From the NCBI GenBank assembly GCA_022705045.1, contig JAKJFE010000011.1, positions 1-39,038 on the forward strand: 39,038 nt of DNA. The letters are read 5' to 3'. A program made the position numbers and the translations under genes. Within the stretch, counting starts at the first letter, position 1. Each line of letters opens with the position of its first letter. The stretch comes from Pseudomonadota bacterium. Lineage in GTDB: Bacteria > Pseudomonadota > Gammaproteobacteria > Xanthomonadales > Ahniellaceae. The notes beneath the pieces were generated by a model, which worked only from the letters and a program-made list of their open reading frames with translations, ran no database searches and was not told where the DNA came from. Of the stretch, positions 28,295 to 36,989 are shown in pieces.

Positions 28295-29092
28295 ATGGAT
28301 ACGGATGGCAGCCTGGCGCTGCGTTTTCTCGGAGTCGGCAATGCGCAGGCGGTGGAACTCGGTTCCGCTGCGGTTGTGCTTGAGCGCGACGGCGCGCCGC
28401 TGCTGATGATCGACTGCGGTCAGGAGGCGTTTTCGGCCTTTCTCGAACGTTACGGCCACGTGCCCGAGGCGCTGTTCGTCACGCATGCGCATTTCGACCA
28501 CATCGGCGGGCTGGAGCGGCTGTTCTATCGCGTCTATTTCGATGCCGAGCGGCGCGGGCGCGTGAAGCTGTACGTCGCAGCCGATCTGGTGCCGATCCTG
28601 CAGCAACGTGTCGCGAACTATCCGAGTCCACTGGCCGAAGGCGGCGCGAACTTCTGGGATGCGTTCCAGCTGGTGCCGGTCGATCGCGGCTTCTGGCATG
28701 GTGGCTGTTGGTTCGACGTGTTCGCGGTGCGCCATCATCTGCCACGCACCGCCTTCGGCATCGCGCTGCGCGGCAGCTTCCTGTTCACCGGCGACACCCG
28801 GCCGATACCCGAACTCGTCGCCTTTCATGCCGATGGCGCCGAGCTGATCGCACACGACTGCGGCGTGCAAGGCAATCCGTCGCACACCGGTCTGGACGAT
28901 CTGATGGCGGCGTATTCCGCCGAGACGCGCGCACGCATGATCGTTTACCACTACGCGAAACACAGCGACCGCGACGTGTTCGCGCAAGCCGGCTTGCGTG
29001 TGGCGAGCGCCGGTGATGCATTCGCGCTGGCACCGCCCATGGATGCGACGCAGGCCGCGACGCTGGCCCAGCACGGCGGACGCGTCCGATGA
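28295..29092 (+). CDS. Metallo-beta-lactamase-fold hydrolase
   Basis: A 265-residue cytoplasmic MBL-fold protein with the di-metal motif THAHFDH (His64, His66, Asp68, His69), a further His in VRHHLP, TGDTRP (bridging Asp) and VYHYAKHSD near the end. It resembles RNase Z/PhnP-like members in general shape, but the substrate cannot be told. It lies 9 bases after kdkA, and its TGA overlaps the moaA ATG, so it belongs to the kdkA-moaACDE transcription unit. Confidence 0.82.
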   Translation: MDTDGSLALRFLGVGNAQAVELGSAAVVLERDGAPLLMIDCGQEAFSAFLERYGHVPEALFVTHAHFDHIGGLERLFYRVYFDAERRGRVKLYVAADLVPILQQRVANYPSPLAEGGANFWDAFQLVPVDRGFWHGGCWFDVFAVRHHLPRTAFGIALRGSFLFTGDTRPIPELVAFHADGAELIAHDCGVQGNPSHTGLDDLMAAYSAETRARMIVYHYAKHSDRDVFAQAGLRVASAGDAFALAPPMDATQAATLAQHGGRVR

Positions 29093-30096
29093 GCGCCTTG
29101 CTCGATCCGCGCCAGCGACCGCTGCGCGACCTGCGCATCTCGGTCATCGACCGCTGCAATTTCCGTTGCCCGTATTGCATGCCGGTCGAACGCTTTGGCG
29201 GGCCCTCGGCCTTCATGCCGAAAGGCGATTGGCTGCGACCCGACGAGATCGAGCGCATCGCACGTGCCTTCGTGGCGCTGGGCGTGCGCAAGCTGCGCCT
29301 GACCGGCGGTGAACCCCTGTTGCGGGCCGAGTTGCCGGAGATCGTCGAGCGCCTGGCGCGCATCGAGGGCGTCGAGGATCTGGCACTGACCACGAATGCG
29401 GTGCTGTTGCCGAAACACGCCGAGATCTTGCGGCGCGCCGGCCTGAAGCGCTTGACCATCAGCCTGGATGCGCTGGATCCCGATGTCTTCAAGCGCATGA
29501 GCGGCGGTCAGGGCGAGGTGTCCGAGGTGTTCGCGGGCATCGCCGCCGCGGAAGCCGCGGGTTTTGCCCGATTGAAGTTCAACTGCGTCGTGCAGCGTGG
29601 CGTCAACGAAGACGACGTTCTGTCACTGGCCGAGCATTTCCGCGGCACGCCACACATCGTGCGTTTCATCGAATACATGGACGTCGGCACCTGCAACCGC
29701 TGGTCGCGGGCCGATGTCGTCGACAGCGCCGAACTGCTGGCGCGGATTGGCGAGCACTGGTCCCTGATGCCGGTCGGGCGCAGTCAACCCGGCGAGGTGG
29801 CCGAGCGTTATCGCTACGTCGATGGCGGCGGCGAGATCGGTTTCATCTCGTCGGTCAGCGCGCCGTTCTGCGGCGACTGCACGCGTGCACGAGTCTCGGC
29901 CGATGGCGAGTGGTTCACGTGTCTGTTCGCGTCCCGAGGCGTGGCTTTGCGGCCGCTGCTCGGTGCGGATGACGCAAGTTTGCGCGCCGCCATCGCGTCG
30001 CGCTGGTCGGCGCGCGCCGATCGTTACAGCGAATTGCGCGCCGAACGCGAACGCGAAGCCGCGGCACGCGTCGAAATGTTCCGCATGGGAGGCTGA
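29089..30096 (+). CDS. moaA: GTP 3',8-cyclase MoaA
   Basis: MoaA is the radical-SAM enzyme that cyclises GTP to 3',8-cyclo-GTP, the first step of molybdopterin synthesis. The SAM cluster cysteines are Cys23, Cys27 and Cys30 (CNFRCPYC); TGGEPLL follows; the second cluster uses CGDCTRARVSADGEWFTC near residue 265. The functionally needed C-terminal Gly-Gly is present (MGG). At 335 residues it is full length. The ATG overlaps the upstream stop by 4 bases and moaC begins directly after its own stop. Confidence 0.96.
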   Translation: MSALLDPRQRPLRDLRISVIDRCNFRCPYCMPVERFGGPSAFMPKGDWLRPDEIERIARAFVALGVRKLRLTGGEPLLRAELPEIVERLARIEGVEDLALTTNAVLLPKHAEILRRAGLKRLTISLDALDPDVFKRMSGGQGEVSEVFAGIAAAEAAGFARLKFNCVVQRGVNEDDVLSLAEHFRGTPHIVRFIEYMDVGTCNRWSRADVVDSAELLARIGEHWSLMPVGRSQPGEVAERYRYVDGGGEIGFISSVSAPFCGDCTRARVSADGEWFTCLFASRGVALRPLLGADDASLRAAIASRWSARADRYSELRAEREREAAARVEMFRMGG

Positions 30097-30585
30097 ATGT
30101 CGGACGGATTGAGCCATGTCGATGCCGAAGGTCGTCCACGCATGGTCGATGTCGGCGACAAGGCGGTGACGCGGCGCGAAGCCTGTGCCGAAGCGCGTGT
30201 CGTGTTTCCTCGTGCAGTCGCCGAAACCTTGCGGGTACAACATCTGCGCTCGGCCAAGGGCGCGGTGATCGATACCGCACTGATCGCCGGCACGCTGGCG
30301 GTGAAACGCACGCACGATCTCGTGCCGTTCTGTCATCCGCTGCCGGTCGAGAAGATCGCATTCGGGCACGACTGGATCGACGCGGACACCTTGCGTCTGC
30401 GCTGCACCGTTGCGGCGGTCGCGAAGACCGGGGTCGAAATGGAAGCACTGATTGGCGTGCAGATCGCGGCCGCGACGGTTTACGACATGTGCAAGGCACT
30501 GTCGCATGCGATCCGCATCGAAGGCGTGGCCGTGGTTGCGAAGTCCGGCGGGCGCGATGATTTCGATCATCGCGGAGCCGTCTGA
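30097..30585 (+). CDS. moaC: Cyclic pyranopterin monophosphate synthase MoaC
   Basis: MoaC converts 3',8-cyclo-GTP to cyclic pyranopterin monophosphate. The 162-residue protein contains MVDVGDKAVTRREA, PFCHPLP, GVEMEALIG, YDMCKA and KSGGRDDF, all family signatures including the active-site Lys/Asp region. It starts on the base after the moaA stop, and its TGA shares one base with the moaD ATG. Confidence 0.96.
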   Translation: MSDGLSHVDAEGRPRMVDVGDKAVTRREACAEARVVFPRAVAETLRVQHLRSAKGAVIDTALIAGTLAVKRTHDLVPFCHPLPVEKIAFGHDWIDADTLRLRCTVAAVAKTGVEMEALIGVQIAAATVYDMCKALSHAIRIEGVAVVAKSGGRDDFDHRGAV

Positions 30586-30821
30586 TGCGTGTGCACCTGC
30601 GCTATTTCGCGAGCCTGCGTGATGCGGCCGGCATCGACAGCGAGACCGTCGAGCACGCGGGCGACGCCTGCGCACTGTACGCCGCGATGGCGACCCGCCA
30701 TGGTTTCGTGATGCCGCGCGAACGCGTCCGGCTCGCATTGAACGGTGCCTTCGTGGCCTGGGATCACGCCCTGCGTGATGGCGACGAAGTCGTGTTTCTG
30801 CCGCCGGTATCCGGAGGCTGA
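30585..30821 (+). CDS. moaD: Molybdopterin synthase small subunit MoaD
   Basis: MoaD is the ubiquitin-like sulfur carrier of molybdopterin synthase. The 78 residues have the beta-grasp pattern (VHLRYFASLRDAAG) and end in the required Gly-Gly (VSGG), the site of thiocarboxylation. One-base overlap with moaC and a 2-base gap to moaE, its partner subunit. Confidence 0.94.
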   Translation: MRVHLRYFASLRDAAGIDSETVEHAGDACALYAAMATRHGFVMPRERVRLALNGAFVAWDHALRDGDEVVFLPPVSGG

Positions 30822-30823
30822 CC

Positions 30824-31255
30824 ATGGACGTCGACTCGATGTCGTTTTTCCGGCTCAACGATCACGGTATCGATGTCGCTGCGCTGCGCCGTGCGCTCGA
30901 TGATCCGCATTGTGGTGCCGTCGTCGGCTTCGATGGTGTCGTGCGCGACCATCATGGCGGTCGCGCCGTGTCCGAGCTGCGTTACGAAGCCTACGCGGCA
31001 CTGGCCGAACGCGAAGGTCAGGCCATCGTCGATGAAGCCGTGGCGAAGTTCGCGGTGCGCCGCATCGTCGCGGAACACCGGGTCGGCCTGCTCGGCATCG
31101 GCGACATCGCCGTGTACGTCGGCGTGTCCGCCGCACATCGCGACGCGGCGTTCGCCGCGTGCCGCCACGTCATTGACGAAATCAAGGCACGCGTGCCGAT
31201 CTGGAAACACGAACACTACGCCGACGGTGCGGCGGAGTGGATTCATCCGGATTGA
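30824..31255 (+). CDS. moaE: Molybdopterin synthase catalytic subunit MoaE
   Basis: MoaE pairs with MoaD and inserts the dithiolene sulfurs. The 143-residue protein has GAVVGFDGVVRDHH, YEAYAALAE, RVGLLGIGDIAVYVGVSA and the active-site Lys in PIWKHEHY; a second Lys common in homologues (WKKE or WKRE) is His here. ATG 30824 follows moaD by 2 bases. Its last 13 bases overlap the 3' end of convergent xseA. No moaB or moeA is in the window. Confidence 0.94.
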   Translation: MDVDSMSFFRLNDHGIDVAALRRALDDPHCGAVVGFDGVVRDHHGGRAVSELRYEAYAALAEREGQAIVDEAVAKFAVRRIVAEHRVGLLGIGDIAVYVGVSAAHRDAAFAACRHVIDEIKARVPIWKHEHYADGAAEWIHPD

Positions 31256-32601
31256 AGCCGGGCGGCGACGACACGTGCGTCGATCTCGCCATCGCGAACC
31301 TTGATCCGCAACGTGTCATCCGGCTTGATGGCTTCGACCGACTGTACGGTTCGCCCGGCCGCATCGAAGGCGATGGCATAGCCGCGTTCCAGCGTGGCCA
31401 GCGGGCTCAAGGCGTTGAGTGATCGCGCGAGACCGGCCAGATGTGTCGCTCGATGCTCGAGGCCGCGCGCGCAGACGGCTTGCAAGCGCAGGCGCGCGTG
31501 TTCGGCGCGCTTGCGCAGCAGGGCGATGCGTTCGAGGGCGGCCGCGCGGTGCAGGCGTGCCTGCAGTTGCTCGATGCGCTGGCGTTGACGGGCGATGGCG
31601 GGGGCCGGGACACGGACCAGCCGCGCGTGGACATGGCGCAGGCGTTCGCCGAGTGCGCCGAGCCGGGTCAACGGATGGCGGGCCTGCAGCCGCAGCTGCA
31701 GGCGGTCCAGGCGTTGCGCATCACGGTCGAGACGATGGCGGACGGCGCGGTCGAGCCGTCGCTTCAGCGCGTCGAGTCGATCACGCAATGCGTCCCCGGA
31801 TGGCGCGATCAGTTCCGCTGCGGCCGAGGGCGTCGGTGCGCGCAGATCGGCCACGAAATCCGCGATCGTGAAGTCGACTTCATGACCGACCGCGGACACC
31901 ACCGGCATCGGCATCGACGCGATGCGTCGCGCCAGGGCTTCGTCGTTGAACGCAAACAGGTCTTCGATCGATCCGCCGCCACGGGTGATCAGCACGAGGT
32001 CGTGCCGACCGAGCATCGCGATGCGGTCGAGCTGCGCGCGCAGTTGTGCGGGTGCCTCGGCGCCTTGCACCAGGCTCGGGAACAGGTCGGCGTCGAGCAG
32101 CGGAAAACGGCGCGACAACACGCTGACGACGTCGCGGATCGCGGCGCCGCTGGCCGAACTGACGATGGCGATGCGGCGCGGGAAGGCGTGCAGGGCGCGC
32201 TTTCGTGCAGGGTCGAACAGGCCTTCGCTGGCGAGGCGCGCTTTCAGCTCCTCGAACGCGCGCTGCAACGCACCTTGTCCGGCCGGTTCCAGATGTTCGA
32301 TCTGCAACTGGAACTCGCCGCGCGGCTCGTAGAGGGTGACGCGTGCCCGCGCCAGCACGTGTTGCCCATCGGCGGGTGCGAAGCGCAGCAGCATCGCCCG
32401 CGGCCGCCACATCGCGCAGCGCACCTGGGCGCCGGCATCCTTCAGCGAGAAATACAGGTGCCCGGATTTCGCCTTGAGGAAATTCGAGACTTCGCCCTCG
32501 ATCCAGAACAGCGGGAAGCCGCGCTCCAGCGCCGCGCGCACTTCCGCGTTCAGCGTCGTCGGCGTCAGGGTCTGGCGTTGCAGGAGCGGGGTTTCAGACA
32601 C
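31243..32601 (-). CDS. xseA: Exodeoxyribonuclease VII large subunit
   Basis: XseA is the catalytic subunit of exonuclease VII, which degrades single-stranded DNA. The 452 residues have the N-terminal OB fold (about 10-110, with FWIEGEVSNF and GHLYFSLKD), the nuclease core (VLITRGGGSIEDLFAFNDE, SAVGHEVDFTIADFVAD, APTPSAAAE) and a long Arg/Leu coiled coil (about 270-400) before LERGYAI. Start is GTG 32601. The small subunit gene xseB is not adjacent. It converges with moaE (13-base overlap) and diverges from the REC/GGDEF/EAL-like gene. Confidence 0.94.
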   Translation of the reverse strand: MSETPLLQRQTLTPTTLNAEVRAALERGFPLFWIEGEVSNFLKAKSGHLYFSLKDAGAQVRCAMWRPRAMLLRFAPADGQHVLARARVTLYEPRGEFQLQIEHLEPAGQGALQRAFEELKARLASEGLFDPARKRALHAFPRRIAIVSSASGAAIRDVVSVLSRRFPLLDADLFPSLVQGAEAPAQLRAQLDRIAMLGRHDLVLITRGGGSIEDLFAFNDEALARRIASMPMPVVSAVGHEVDFTIADFVADLRAPTPSAAAELIAPSGDALRDRLDALKRRLDRAVRHRLDRDAQRLDRLQLRLQARHPLTRLGALGERLRHVHARLVRVPAPAIARQRQRIEQLQARLHRAAALERIALLRKRAEHARLRLQAVCARGLEHRATHLAGLARSLNALSPLATLERGYAIAFDAAGRTVQSVEAIKPDDTLRIKVRDGEIDARVVAARLQSG

Positions 32602-32714
32602 GGCGGCACCGCGAACGGGGCGTGGGAGCTTAGCGACATCGCGGGACAGGGTCGATGCGTCCTCGGACTTTGGTCGTGCTTGACGATCGCCGCGCGGGCG
32701 GCGAGATTCCGATC

Positions 32715-35105
32715 ATGGACAAACGGCCGACACCGGCGTCGCTGAACAAATTGACGGCCCTGGCGGGCGAGCTGGCCACACGCGGACTGTCGCTGGTGGA
32801 ACAGTGGCCGGTCGTCGAGATCGCGCAGTTGTACGAACAGGTCGACAATCTCGCCGCGGCAGCGGATCTACCGGGCGCCGAGGCGGTGGCGAACGCGGCA
32901 CTGGAACTCGCCGTCTATCTGTCGGCGCTGGTCGAGTCGGGCAATGCCGCGAATCCGTCGCAACGGGAGCGTGCCCGCGGCTTGATGATGCATCTCGCCG
33001 AGGTGTCCGGCGCGCCGCTGCAGGGCAATGCGACACCGGCAGCGAAACCGTCCCAGCACCGGATCGTCTTCTATCTGCGTGCCGACGATCGCGAATTGCC
33101 CGGTCTGGTCCAGCAGTTGGCGCACGAGCGTTTCGTCGCGCGCAGTTTCAGCGATCTCAATCGTGCCATCGCCGAGGCGCGCAGCTTGCCGCCGCATGCG
33201 CTGATCGTCGACGAAGGTTTCGTCTCCGGGCTGGCGCGCATGATCGAGACGGTGGAACGCGCCGGCAGCGAGCATCGGCGGCGACCGCTGACGCTGGCGC
33301 TGTGTGACGGCACCGACGTCCGGCAACGCCTGTTCGCGCAGCGTGCCGGCGCCGATGCGGTCCTCGAGGGCGCGGATGCATTGCGCGCGGTCGATGGCCT
33401 GATGGGCCTGTTCCTGCGCCAGAGTCGTGACGATGCACGTGTGCTGATCATCGATGACGACGCGGCTATGGCGATGTTCTGTGCCAACGTGTTGTCCCAC
33501 AAGGGCATCGGTTCGCAGATCGTGCACACGGCGCGCGAAGGACTCGAAGCCATCGGTGCGTTTCGGCCCGATCTGGTCCTGCTCGATCTGTACCTGCCCG
33601 ACATGAACGGCATCGAGGTCGCGCAGTTGATCCGCGAACGTCCGGACATGGCCCTGACACCGATCGTGTTCATGTCCGGCGAAGAGGACATCGACAAGCG
33701 CTTCGACGCCATCCGCATGGGCGGCGACGATTTCCTGGCCAAGCCGATAAAGCCGCGGCACCTGCTCGCGTCGGTGACCAGCCGCATGGGTCGGGCGCGC
33801 AAGATTGCCGCGGCCGGTATCGCCGGTGAGGGCGTCGTCGACGCCCGCAGTGGCCGGATCGACCGCGCCACCCTCGTGCACGACATCGAACGCGCGCGTC
33901 GCGGCGAACTCGGCGAATGCGTCGGGCTGATCATGCTCAGCGTCGACGATGTGCCGGCGCTCGCGAAACGCCTGGGTTTCGTGCGCACCGGCGATCTCGC
34001 GCAGCAGATCGGGACGACGATCGCGAGCGAACCAGCGCTGAAGTCGGGCGTCTGCGCGCTCGGCGACTTCAGTTTCCTGTCGCTGCTGCCGGTCTCGAGC
34101 GAGGGCGCGCTGCGCATCGACGCCGAGAACCTGCGTGCGCGCCTGTCCGGGCGTGGCTGGTTGTCGGCGGACGCGTCGGTGCGTGTCAGTTTCTCGTTGG
34201 GCGGCGCACGCGCCGACGAACCCGGCACCAGCGTCGACGATCTGCTCGCTGGGGTCAGCGATGCCGTGCATGCGGCGCACGAGCAGGGCGGCGGTCGCAG
34301 CGAATGGGCCACGCGCAGTCGCGACGACGCCCAGGTGACACCGGACGTGCGGCTTGCCCACGCCATCCTGCGGCGACCGTTGATCGCCGACACCACCGAA
34401 TTCAGATTTCGCGCGCTGGTGCCCTTGCGCGGGCAGCTCACGAGCCAGTTCCTCGTCGACTTCGCCCTGGTCGCGCCGCGGGCATCGCAGGCCGTTCGCA
34501 TCGGACGCGACACCTTCCTGCCGATCGCGACGTCGCTCAACGTCATGCGCGGCGTCGATCGCTGGCAGGTGCATGCGCTCGCGCAGCGCGCCCGACGCGA
34601 ATCAGCCGTGATGCCGGAACTGCGTTTCCTGTTGCCGATGAGCGTCGAGACCCTGTTCGATCCCGCGTTCCCGCAGTGGCTGGGTGCGGACCTGCATGGC
34701 CTGCAATGCGAGGCCGACGCGCTGGTGCTGGTCTTCGACGTGACGCAGCTGGTCGACGATGTGCCGCGTGCAAGCCGTGCCCTGGAAGCGATCCAGACGA
34801 CCGGGGTGCGCCTGTGCCTGTCCGGCTTCTCCGATGTCGGTCGCGACCAGCAGCGCCTGTGTCGTCTGTCGAGCATCTACGCGAACCTGATCGACTGGTC
34901 GGCACCGTCGAAGGACTGGCGTGAATCGCGCATGCGCCTGGTGGCGGAATCGCTGAAACACGGCAAGCTCGTCGTGATGCGGGGGATCGACGACCCCTCG
35001 CCATTGGGCGAGTTGTTCCGCGACGGCGTGCACTATGTCGTGGGCGATGCACTCGGTACCTGGGCACCGATGCCGGCTGCGTCGGCGGCACCCTTGGCGG
35101 TCTGA
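32715..35105 (+). CDS. Response regulator with degenerate GGDEF and EAL-like domains
   Basis: A 796-residue soluble protein: N-terminal helical region (about 1-105), a receiver-like domain without usual motifs (about 115-235), an intact receiver domain (VLIIDDD 243-249, phospho-acceptor Asp291 in LLDLYLPD, Lys343 in FLAKP), a GGDEF-like domain whose signature is LGDFS (449-453), and an EAL-like domain (about 560-785). The latter keeps the order of family landmarks but has RALVPL for EAL, VTQ for the ITE metal site, SGF for DDF and RGID for AEGVE. Both catalytic activities should be absent; a phosphorylation-controlled scaffold or c-di-GMP sensor is the inference, FimX being a parallel. ATG 32715 is preferred; ATG 32655 in frame is possible. 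Confidence 0.82.
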   Translation: MDKRPTPASLNKLTALAGELATRGLSLVEQWPVVEIAQLYEQVDNLAAAADLPGAEAVANAALELAVYLSALVESGNAANPSQRERARGLMMHLAEVSGAPLQGNATPAAKPSQHRIVFYLRADDRELPGLVQQLAHERFVARSFSDLNRAIAEARSLPPHALIVDEGFVSGLARMIETVERAGSEHRRRPLTLALCDGTDVRQRLFAQRAGADAVLEGADALRAVDGLMGLFLRQSRDDARVLIIDDDAAMAMFCANVLSHKGIGSQIVHTAREGLEAIGAFRPDLVLLDLYLPDMNGIEVAQLIRERPDMALTPIVFMSGEEDIDKRFDAIRMGGDDFLAKPIKPRHLLASVTSRMGRARKIAAAGIAGEGVVDARSGRIDRATLVHDIERARRGELGECVGLIMLSVDDVPALAKRLGFVRTGDLAQQIGTTIASEPALKSGVCALGDFSFLSLLPVSSEGALRIDAENLRARLSGRGWLSADASVRVSFSLGGARADEPGTSVDDLLAGVSDAVHAAHEQGGGRSEWATRSRDDAQVTPDVRLAHAILRRPLIADTTEFRFRALVPLRGQLTSQFLVDFALVAPRASQAVRIGRDTFLPIATSLNVMRGVDRWQVHALAQRARRESAVMPELRFLLPMSVETLFDPAFPQWLGADLHGLQCEADALVLVFDVTQLVDDVPRASRALEAIQTTGVRLCLSGFSDVGRDQQRLCRLSSIYANLIDWSAPSKDWRESRMRLVAESLKHGKLVVMRGIDDPSPLGELFRDGVHYVVGDALGTWAPMPAASAAPLAV

Positions 35106-35113
35106 TCCGGATC

Positions 35114-35141
35114 TTGCCGGAGCCTGCTTTCGGGCTAGACT
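35114..35141 (+). promoter_or_regulatory. Possible promoter of the 2-oxoacid oxidoreductase operon
   Basis: TTGCCG (35114-35119) and TAGACT (35136-35141) are 16 bases apart, each matching four of six consensus positions, in the 95-base gap before the flavoprotein gene. A start near 35148 would leave a leader of about 53 bases with GGGGAGAA at 35191-35198 as ribosome site. Confidence 0.45.
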
Positions 35142-35200
35142 CGGAACGTTGTTGATCCTGCTGTCGCTGTGCGTTCGTCTGTCGTCTGATGGGGAGAAGC

Positions 35201-36989
35201 ATGCGTCCGACCGATATCCGCAATCCCGACTATTTCCACAAGGTGGTCGATTGCCAGTGGGCCTGTCCGGCGCACACGCCGGTGCCCGAATACATCCGCC
35301 TGATCGCCGCCGGCAAACACGATGCCGCCTACATGGTGAACTGGTGGTCGAATGTCTTCCCCGGCATCCTCGGTCGCACCTGCGACCGCCCCTGCGAACC
35401 GGCCTGTCGGCGCGGCCGTGTCGAAGAGGGCAATGGCGAGAAACCCGAACCGGTCGCGATCTGTCGACTCAAGCGCGTCGCCGCCGACCAAGCCGCGCAA
35501 CGGCAAACGCGTCGCCTGTGTCGGTGCCGGCCCGGCCTCGATGACGGTGGCGCGTGATCTCGCGCTTGAAGGTTATGCCGTCACCGTGTTCGACGCCGAC
35601 CCCAAGGCCGGCGGCTTCATGCGGACCCAGGTGCCGCGCTTCCGCCTGCCGGAATCGGTGATCGACGAGGAATGCGGTTTCATCACTGCACTCGGCGTCG
35701 AGTTCCGCGGCGGCACGCGCATCGAATCGCTGAAAGGCCTGATCGGACAGGGTTGGGACGCCATCTTCGTGGGTTCCGGTGCACCGCGCGGCCGTGATCT
35801 CGATTTGCCCGGCCGCAAGGAAGCCGCCGCCAACATCCATCTCGGCATCGACTGGCTGGCCTCGGTGTCGTTCCAGCACATCGAGAAGATCGGCCGGCGC
35901 GTGATCGTGCTCGGCGGCGGCAACACCGCGATGGATTGCTGCCGGTCGGCGAAACGTCTCGGCGGCGAGGACGTGAAGGTCATCGTCCGTTCGGGCTACG
36001 ACGAGATGAAGGCCTCGCCATGGGAGAAGGAGGACGCCCAGCACGAAGGCATTCCGTTCCTGAACTTCCATGTGCCGAAGACCTTCGAACACGACAACGG
36101 CAAGCTCGTCGCGATGACCTTCGAGCTGGTCCGTGCCGAGTTCGATGCCAAGGGCCGGCGCACTCTGGTGCCGACCGGTGAATCCGACGTGCGCGTCGAA
36201 TGCGACGACGTGCTGATCGCGGTCGGGCAGGAGAATTCCTTCCCGTGGATCGAGCGCGACATCGGCCTCGAGTTCGACCAGTGGGGACTGCCGGTGCTCG
36301 ACAAAGCCTCGCTGCAGTCGACGATCAAACACGTCTTCTTCGGCGGCGATGCCGCGTTCGGTCCGAAAAACATCATCTGGGCGGTCGCGCACGGCCACGA
36401 GGCGGCGGTCTCGATCGACAAGTTCCTCAACGGCGAGGACGTCAACGAACGTCCGCCGCCGATGGTGAACCTGACCTCGCAGAAGATGGGCATCCACGAG
36501 TGGAGCTACGACAACGAGATCACCCGCGACGAACGCTACGTCGTGCCTTGGGCACCGAAGGAATTGACGCTGACCAGCATCAAGGTCGAAGTCGAACTCG
36601 GCTTCGACGAGAAAACGGCGTGCAAGGAAGCCGCGCGCTGCCTCAATTGCGACGTGCAGACCGTCTTCATCAAGGACGCCTGCATCGAATGTGATGCCTG
36701 CGTCGACATCTGTCCGATGGACAGCATCAGCTTCACTTTCAATGCCGACGAAGCCGATCTGCGCAAACGCCTGACTGCGCCGGCCCTGAATCTGACGCAG
36801 GACCTGTACGTGTCTGAGAACGTGAAGACGGGGCGGGTGATGGTCAAGGACGAAGACGTGTGCCTGCATTGCGGACTGTGCGCCGAACGCTGCCCGACCG
36901 GTGCTTGGGACATGCAGAAGTTCCTGTTGCAGACGACCAAGGCCGGTGACGGTTGCCGGAGCAAGTCCAAGCTCGGAGCCGCGGCATGA
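35201..36989 (+). pseudogene. GltD-like Fe-S flavoprotein oxidoreductase, frameshifted near 35488
   Basis: Two overlapping frames encode one protein of about 595 residues. Frame one (ATG 35201, strong GGGGAGAA site) gives the N-terminal cluster domain with Cys18, Cys22, Cys61, Cys65 and Cys69, up to RLKRVAAD; it then runs to a stop at 35557. Frame two continues from about 35490 (KPRNGKRVACVGAGPAS) to 36989 with the FAD fold, the NAD(P)H fold (VLGGGNTAMDCC), GGDAAFGPKN, and a two-cluster ferredoxin tail (CIECDACVDICP, CLHCGLCAERCP). One extra base in GACCAAG (35486-35492) explains the shift. The family is the GltD-like NAD(P)H:acceptor oxidoreductases. The stop overlaps the next gene by 4 bases. 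A sequencing error is as likely as a true pseudogene, as the rest is intact. Confidence 0.85.

Follow-up and report, generated by a model that had tools for sequence, protein, structure and literature searches.

What does a response regulator do when both of its c-di-GMP enzyme domains have lost their catalytic residues? The question is raised by an open reading frame in the 39,038 nt stretch of DNA analyzed here (the window), which encodes a protein of 796 aa (P0001; an alternative ATG further upstream, at position 32655, would yield 816 aa). The original prediction described an intact receiver domain (REC) combined with dead GGDEF and EAL domains, as in FimX but lacking a PAS domain, and this interpretation is supported at the sequence level, the registers of two motifs aside. 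From the N terminus to the C terminus, P0001 comprises an Hpt-like helical bundle, a pseudo-receiver, the intact receiver, a dead GGDEF domain and a dead EAL barrel. A Pfam search detected only the receiver (residues 243–354, 8.6e-25) and the EAL domain (residues 595–780, 2e-10), with the GGDEF domain below detection. The AlphaFold2 model, for which 52 relatives served as input, has a pLDDT of 88 and a low pTM of 0.44, so that the folds of the domains can be read from it but their arrangement is not fixed by it. PleD was the top Foldseek match of the full model. No PAS domain was found by the Pfam search or in the model, and the receiver-like domain and the helical N terminus that had been noticed ahead of the receiver both appear in the model. 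The coordinates of all features are compiled in Table 1. Opposite the gene, on the minus strand, lies an open reading frame of 568 codons (window positions 32868–34574), probably a shadow frame of the high-GC sequence.

Table 1. Features of the gene and its divergent neighbor, in window positions; domain limits are those of the structure model, and clade A is the group of orthologs described in the text
Feature	Position	Strand	Evidence
Whole gene, dead REC-GGDEF-EAL response regulator, clade A	32715..35105	+	ORF, 11 orthologs, tree
N-terminal four-helix bundle, residues 8–98, Hpt-like	32736..33008	+	Model
Pseudo-receiver, residues 116–238	33060..33428	+	Model; weak REC profile matches (E 0.02–0.05); site table
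Intact receiver domain, residues 242–367	33438..33815	+	PF00072, 8.6e-25; fold match to VicR receiver
Predicted phospho-acceptor Asp291	33585..33587	+	Invariant in 52 sequences
Conserved Lys343	33741..33743	+	Invariant in clade A; at least 90% in 52 sequences
Pseudo-GGDEF domain, residues 384–531	33864..34307	+	PleD match; FimX GGDEF profile; Pfam in relatives
GDFSF (G450-DFSF-454) at GGDEF position	34062..34076	+	Alignment with canonical GGDEF of own genome
Pseudo-EAL barrel, residues 543–780	34341..35054	+	PF00563, 2e-10; FimX-EAL profile, 8.8e-27; 3hv8 fold
R566-A-L at beta-1 FQP position	34410..34418	+	FimX profile and alignment
L580-V-D582 (in QFLVDFALV) at true EAL motif position	34452..34460	+	FimX profile and alignment
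S703-GFS at DDFG position	34821..34832	+	Alignment
M755-RGID-759 at AEGVE position	34977..34991	+	Alignment
xseA (exonuclease VII large subunit), divergent neighbor	31243..32601	-	PF02601, 5.2e-101

The second receiver is the best preserved part of the protein's signaling machinery. Its fold matches the VicR receiver with a Z score of 23.8 and 0.8 Å over 121 residues, and the acid pair (D247-D249), the aspartate (D291), the Ser/Thr position (S321) and the lysine (K343) are all in place, as had been predicted for Asp291 and Lys343; the aspartate proved to be the same in all relatives compared. By amino acid identity, this receiver is the most conserved domain in four of the five clade A pairs compared, or near it. 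In the pseudo-receiver that precedes it, the beta-3 aspartate (Asp166) is retained in 10 of the 11 clade A orthologs; the lysine is missing, and so is the acid pair at its usual place. The N-terminal bundle has D44 at the place that, by eye, is equivalent to the phospho-His, and none of the clade A N termini carries a histidine at the Hpt phospho-accepting site. In the fold comparison, CheA P1 ranked with the best matches from natural proteins (Z 10.7), and designed or generic bundles scored alike. Neither a profile of the 11 sequences nor a direct Pfam search yielded an Hpt match for the bundle, and Foldseek returned nothing below 1e-3. The sole hint comes through kinship with clade B (see below), one member of which (L062) matches Pfam Hpt weakly, at 9.7e-5, yet lacks the phospho-His. 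The bundle may be of the Hpt type without being a recognized Hpt domain.

The pseudo-GGDEF domain is covered by the PleD match, which extends through residue 525. The profile of the 11 orthologs has the FimX GGDEF domain as its best, if weak, match in this region (1.6e-4), and 37 of the 52 family members match PF00990. The signature GG(D/E)EF of active diguanylate cyclases is absent from P0001, and the reduced motif reported at this place was recovered by alignment with canonical GGDEF of the same genome (Table 1).

For the C-terminal region, whose relationship to EAL domains had been in question, the answer is affirmative, given the Pfam match and a sequence profile that places FimX-EAL clearly first among solved relatives. 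In the fold comparison, 3hv8, a structure of the EAL domain of FimX with c-di-GMP, likewise ranks first (Z 26.6, 2.3 Å, 238 residues). Further FimX structures follow within about 1–2 Z units, as do several EAL domains that are active, and FimX is therefore not distinguished by fold alone. The proposed likeness to FimX thus holds by profile and is tied by fold. At the positions of active phosphodiesterases, P0001 has L580 for the Glu of the EAL motif, P641 for Asn, V673 and V676 for the two Glu, S703-G704 for the Asp pair, N724 for Lys, D759 for Glu and V776 for Gln. In FimX numbering, the replacements are Q461R, E475L, R479A, H533P, Q565V, E568V, Q596G, K616N, F652G, E654D and Q671V; every catalytic and pocket position in the alignment is replaced. 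Altogether, the anatomy and the motif losses of the original prediction stand, including the changes of DDFG to SGFS and of AEGVE to RGID, and two registers do not. The reported change of EAL to RAL was a register error: R566-A-L lies where beta-1 has FQP, and the motif proper belongs at L580-V-D582. The loss described as ITE to VTQ is real, with the register slightly off, as V673 and V676 occupy the two acidic positions. With these corrections, all EAL landmarks are indeed replaced; the losses of Asn, Lys and Gln had been missed.

The family was explored in a set of 61 relatives and 299 genomes of the order. P0001 falls in clade A, which has 11 members from families f1, f12 and f2, all with the same dead motifs; the named relatives are Lysobacterales/Rhodanobacteraceae metagenome bins. 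No clade A member has an intact EAL or GGDEF motif, which excludes a decay in one strain. In the tree, clades A and C (support 100 each) are accompanied by further paralogs of family f11 and by clade B, whose members occur throughout the order. An EAL-only tree that included FimX and canonical EAL domains united A, C and D (100/99), apart from B and FimX, and placed B, itself supported at 85/68, nearer to FimX. From the pseudo-receiver to the EAL barrel, P0001 can be aligned with clade B (E about 1e-42 to 1e-71). Beyond the order, among the genomes sampled from the rest of the class, there was no match at 1e-60. Judging from the codon comparisons, all domains of the clade A protein are under purifying selection, with dN/dS values of 0.08–0.47 over all domains and pairs, mostly below 0.3, at dS values that are high and near saturation in some pairs.

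The genome that harbors the window has 15 EAL and 37 GGDEF matches, and it encodes two more full-length dead REC-GGDEF-EAL paralogs, L002 (G000 C174) and L003 (G000 C54). L002 is a clade B protein, while L003 belongs to clade C and has lost the pocket differently, with acidic residues retained at FimX positions 565 and 596. Some clade C members (L060, L048, L047 and L094) have an altered acid pair or no receiver lysine, so phosphorylation may be lost there; in clade A these residues are intact. Clade C is also present in 10 of the 11 carriers of clade A, which makes heteromers of the paralogs a testable idea; a strict co-occurrence of the two clades was rejected, as it is broken by G090, which has no clade C gene. 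Family f11 (L020–L022, L026, L065, L067–L075) has undergone an expansion of its own, with several dead paralogs per genome, some of them very divergent.

The gene neighborhood is conserved on one side. xseA adjoins the clade A gene divergently in all 11 clade A genomes, which supports the orthology of these genes, and in the genomes lacking clade A that were examined there is no relative of the gene at the xseA locus. The regions between the two genes could not be aligned among relatives, and a shared regulatory site was discarded because this sequence is not conserved; no sigma-70-like site was found in window positions 32500–35250. The gene has no pilus genes as neighbors. Molybdenum cofactor genes (MoaE by Pfam; MoaA and MoaC by reading) adjoin xseA at window positions 28295–31255, in an order conserved in the genus. 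On the other side, an N-terminal part with a Fer4_20 match (35189–35557) and a GltD-like part (35352–36989) occupy two frames in the window and a single frame in the relatives L009 and L038, pointing to a frameshift or an assembly error.

Whether the barrel could still hold c-di-GMP was assessed at pocket positions taken from the literature (PMC3527489), the alignment and canonical motifs. In clade B, Q461, R479, K/R616, E654 and Q671 (FimX numbers) are retained in all 20 sequences, and conservation is higher in the pocket than in the remainder of the barrel (0.60 vs. 0.39, P=0.005). In clade A, the pocket is no more conserved than the remaining barrel (0.37 vs. 0.35, P=0.41), a negative from only ten sequences and hence weaker than the positive of clade B. 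The few invariant barrel residues of clade A are mostly structural or hydrophobic (G573, Q578, L585, P588, R637, F652, W655 and L656). The suggestion that nucleotide binding may be lost therefore gains in substance, with the FimX-type pocket erased and unconserved in clade A, and the c-di-GMP receptor function known for the family has probably been lost there, as far as alignments can tell.

This function is documented for a relative in Xanthomonas. XOC_4190, a protein of 656 aa with REC, NDNST and QVL that is homologous to PXO_02944/GEdpX9 (PMC4823724, PMC6637768), has no diguanylate cyclase or phosphodiesterase activity; its EAL domain binds c-di-GMP with a Kd of about 4.6 uM, and its deletion increases sliding motility and reduces virulence (PMC4823724). 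Disruption of PD1671 in Xylella raises gum gene expression (PMC4374697). In family f2, the clade B proteins have a REC-GGDEF-EAL architecture and a length of about 630 aa; NDNS stands in place of the GGDEF motif and Q[VL]L in place of EAL. The RT-PCR primers for PD1671 (PMC4374697) encode DSGADDF and YGYTAFE, which are identical to clade B peptides at 6 of 7 residues, with weaker agreement for others. Judged by sequence features, clade B corresponds to XOC_4190/GEdpX9 (motif, length, architecture and lineage) and to PD1671 (primer peptides, not full sequences). The short clade B proteins of family f2 lack the Hpt-like bundle and the pseudo-receiver, which other clade B members possess.

Against this background, we consider it rather likely that P0001 is a dead response regulator that works as a phosphorylation-switched scaffold and has most likely lost c-di-GMP binding. 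With both c-di-GMP enzyme domains devoid of catalytic residues and probably of nucleotide binding, the protein would most likely act through protein binding only. We infer that Asp291 in the second receiver is phosphorylated, by a putative partner kinase, a step supported by the strict conservation of this residue. Via the long helix that follows the receiver, phosphorylation might then alter dimerization or the packing of the domains, in the manner of PleD-type regulators. The output would be a protein-protein contact made by the pseudo-GGDEF domain and the pseudo-EAL barrel, perhaps also by the Hpt-like and pseudo-receiver domains, with no synthesis, no hydrolysis and, most likely, no binding of c-di-GMP. 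By descent, the best reading of the sequences is that P0001 derives paralogously from FimX-like, c-di-GMP-binding dead regulators of the XOC_4190/PD1671 type and has gone beyond them in losing the nucleotide pocket.

An effector like XOC_4190, in which the degenerate barrel still binds c-di-GMP (or pGpG) in a manner unlike FimX, would be compatible with the intact barrel fold, closest to FimX with c-di-GMP (3hv8), with the binding by clade B relatives (PMC4823724) and with the room that the loss of FimX-type contacts leaves for another binding mode; as the residues kept by clade B are all gone from P0001 and their positions are no more conserved in clade A, we regard it as unlikely. Purifying selection on all pseudo-domains would also fit a new small ligand or activity gained by the pseudo-EAL barrel or the pseudo-receiver, but the pocket has no new invariant polar cluster and barrel invariants are few in clade A, so that such a gain appears quite improbable. 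We give similarly little credence to a role in type IV pilus regulation in which P0001 would take the place of FimX or compete with it at PilZ/PilB: the barrel is of the FimX type, the genome has five PilZ-domain matches and the deletion of XOC_4190 alters sliding motility (PMC4823724), but pilus genes do not adjoin the gene, its conserved neighbor is xseA, and a true FimX with REC-PAS-GGDEF-EAL architecture is encoded separately on contig 42 of the same genome. The existence of this protein also rules out that P0001 is FimX itself. Finally, the loss of all catalytic motifs could be taken for a gene decaying in this strain, an explanation that can practically be dismissed: the same loss is found in 11 orthologs over three families, with open frames throughout and dN/dS well below 1, and isolated decay is contradicted by both the ortholog motifs and the selection values.

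Regulators of this kind, dead GGDEF-EAL response regulators, are already known; what is new is a clade in which the pocket is erased and an Hpt-like bundle and a pseudo-receiver form the front end. Dead c-di-GMP domains are common, and by analogy they are usually classified as c-di-GMP receptors, a habit that could be tested on the family of P0001, in which sister clades of one genome have the pocket conserved in one and erased in the other, both with an intact receiver. It is an evenly balanced proposition that the pseudo-EAL domain of clade A is now a purely protein-binding, nucleotide-free output under REC control, and that the genome thus holds a series that starts with active EAL domains, continues with FimX and with a dead regulator that binds c-di-GMP (clade B), and ends with an erased-pocket scaffold (clade A), possibly working on or with the paralogs B and C. 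Should clade A prove to be nucleotide-free, nature would here provide a clear example of a c-di-GMP enzyme converted into a scaffold under the control of phosphorylation, which would caution against labeling such genes diguanylate cyclases, phosphodiesterases or c-di-GMP effectors.

Compared with known systems, P0001 shares with FimX a dead GGDEF domain and a dead EAL barrel, FimX being the closest barrel by profile and the best, though weak, GGDEF match. However, FimX has a REC-PAS-GGDEF-EAL architecture, whereas P0001 lacks PAS, has a pseudo-receiver plus a receiver with all phosphorylation residues, and has lost the c-di-GMP contact residues. Like PleD (REC-REC-GGDEF), P0001 has tandem receivers ahead of a GGDEF domain. 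PleD is phosphorylated on its first receiver and uses the second as an adaptor; in P0001 the order is reversed, the GGDEF domain is dead and an EAL domain follows. In LapD and CsrD, a dead GGDEF-EAL tandem serves signaling, not catalysis. P0001 shares the dead tandem, and LapD structures are among its Foldseek matches, but proteins of this type are membrane-bound or have other input domains and no REC. XOC_4190/PXO_02944 (GEdpX9) and PD1671 have, like P0001, an intact REC followed by a dead GGDEF and a dead EAL domain and belong to the same broad family; compared with the XOC_4190 type, clade A represents a paralog with an N-terminal Hpt-like bundle and a pseudo-receiver, devoid of the c-di-GMP pocket still present in clade B.
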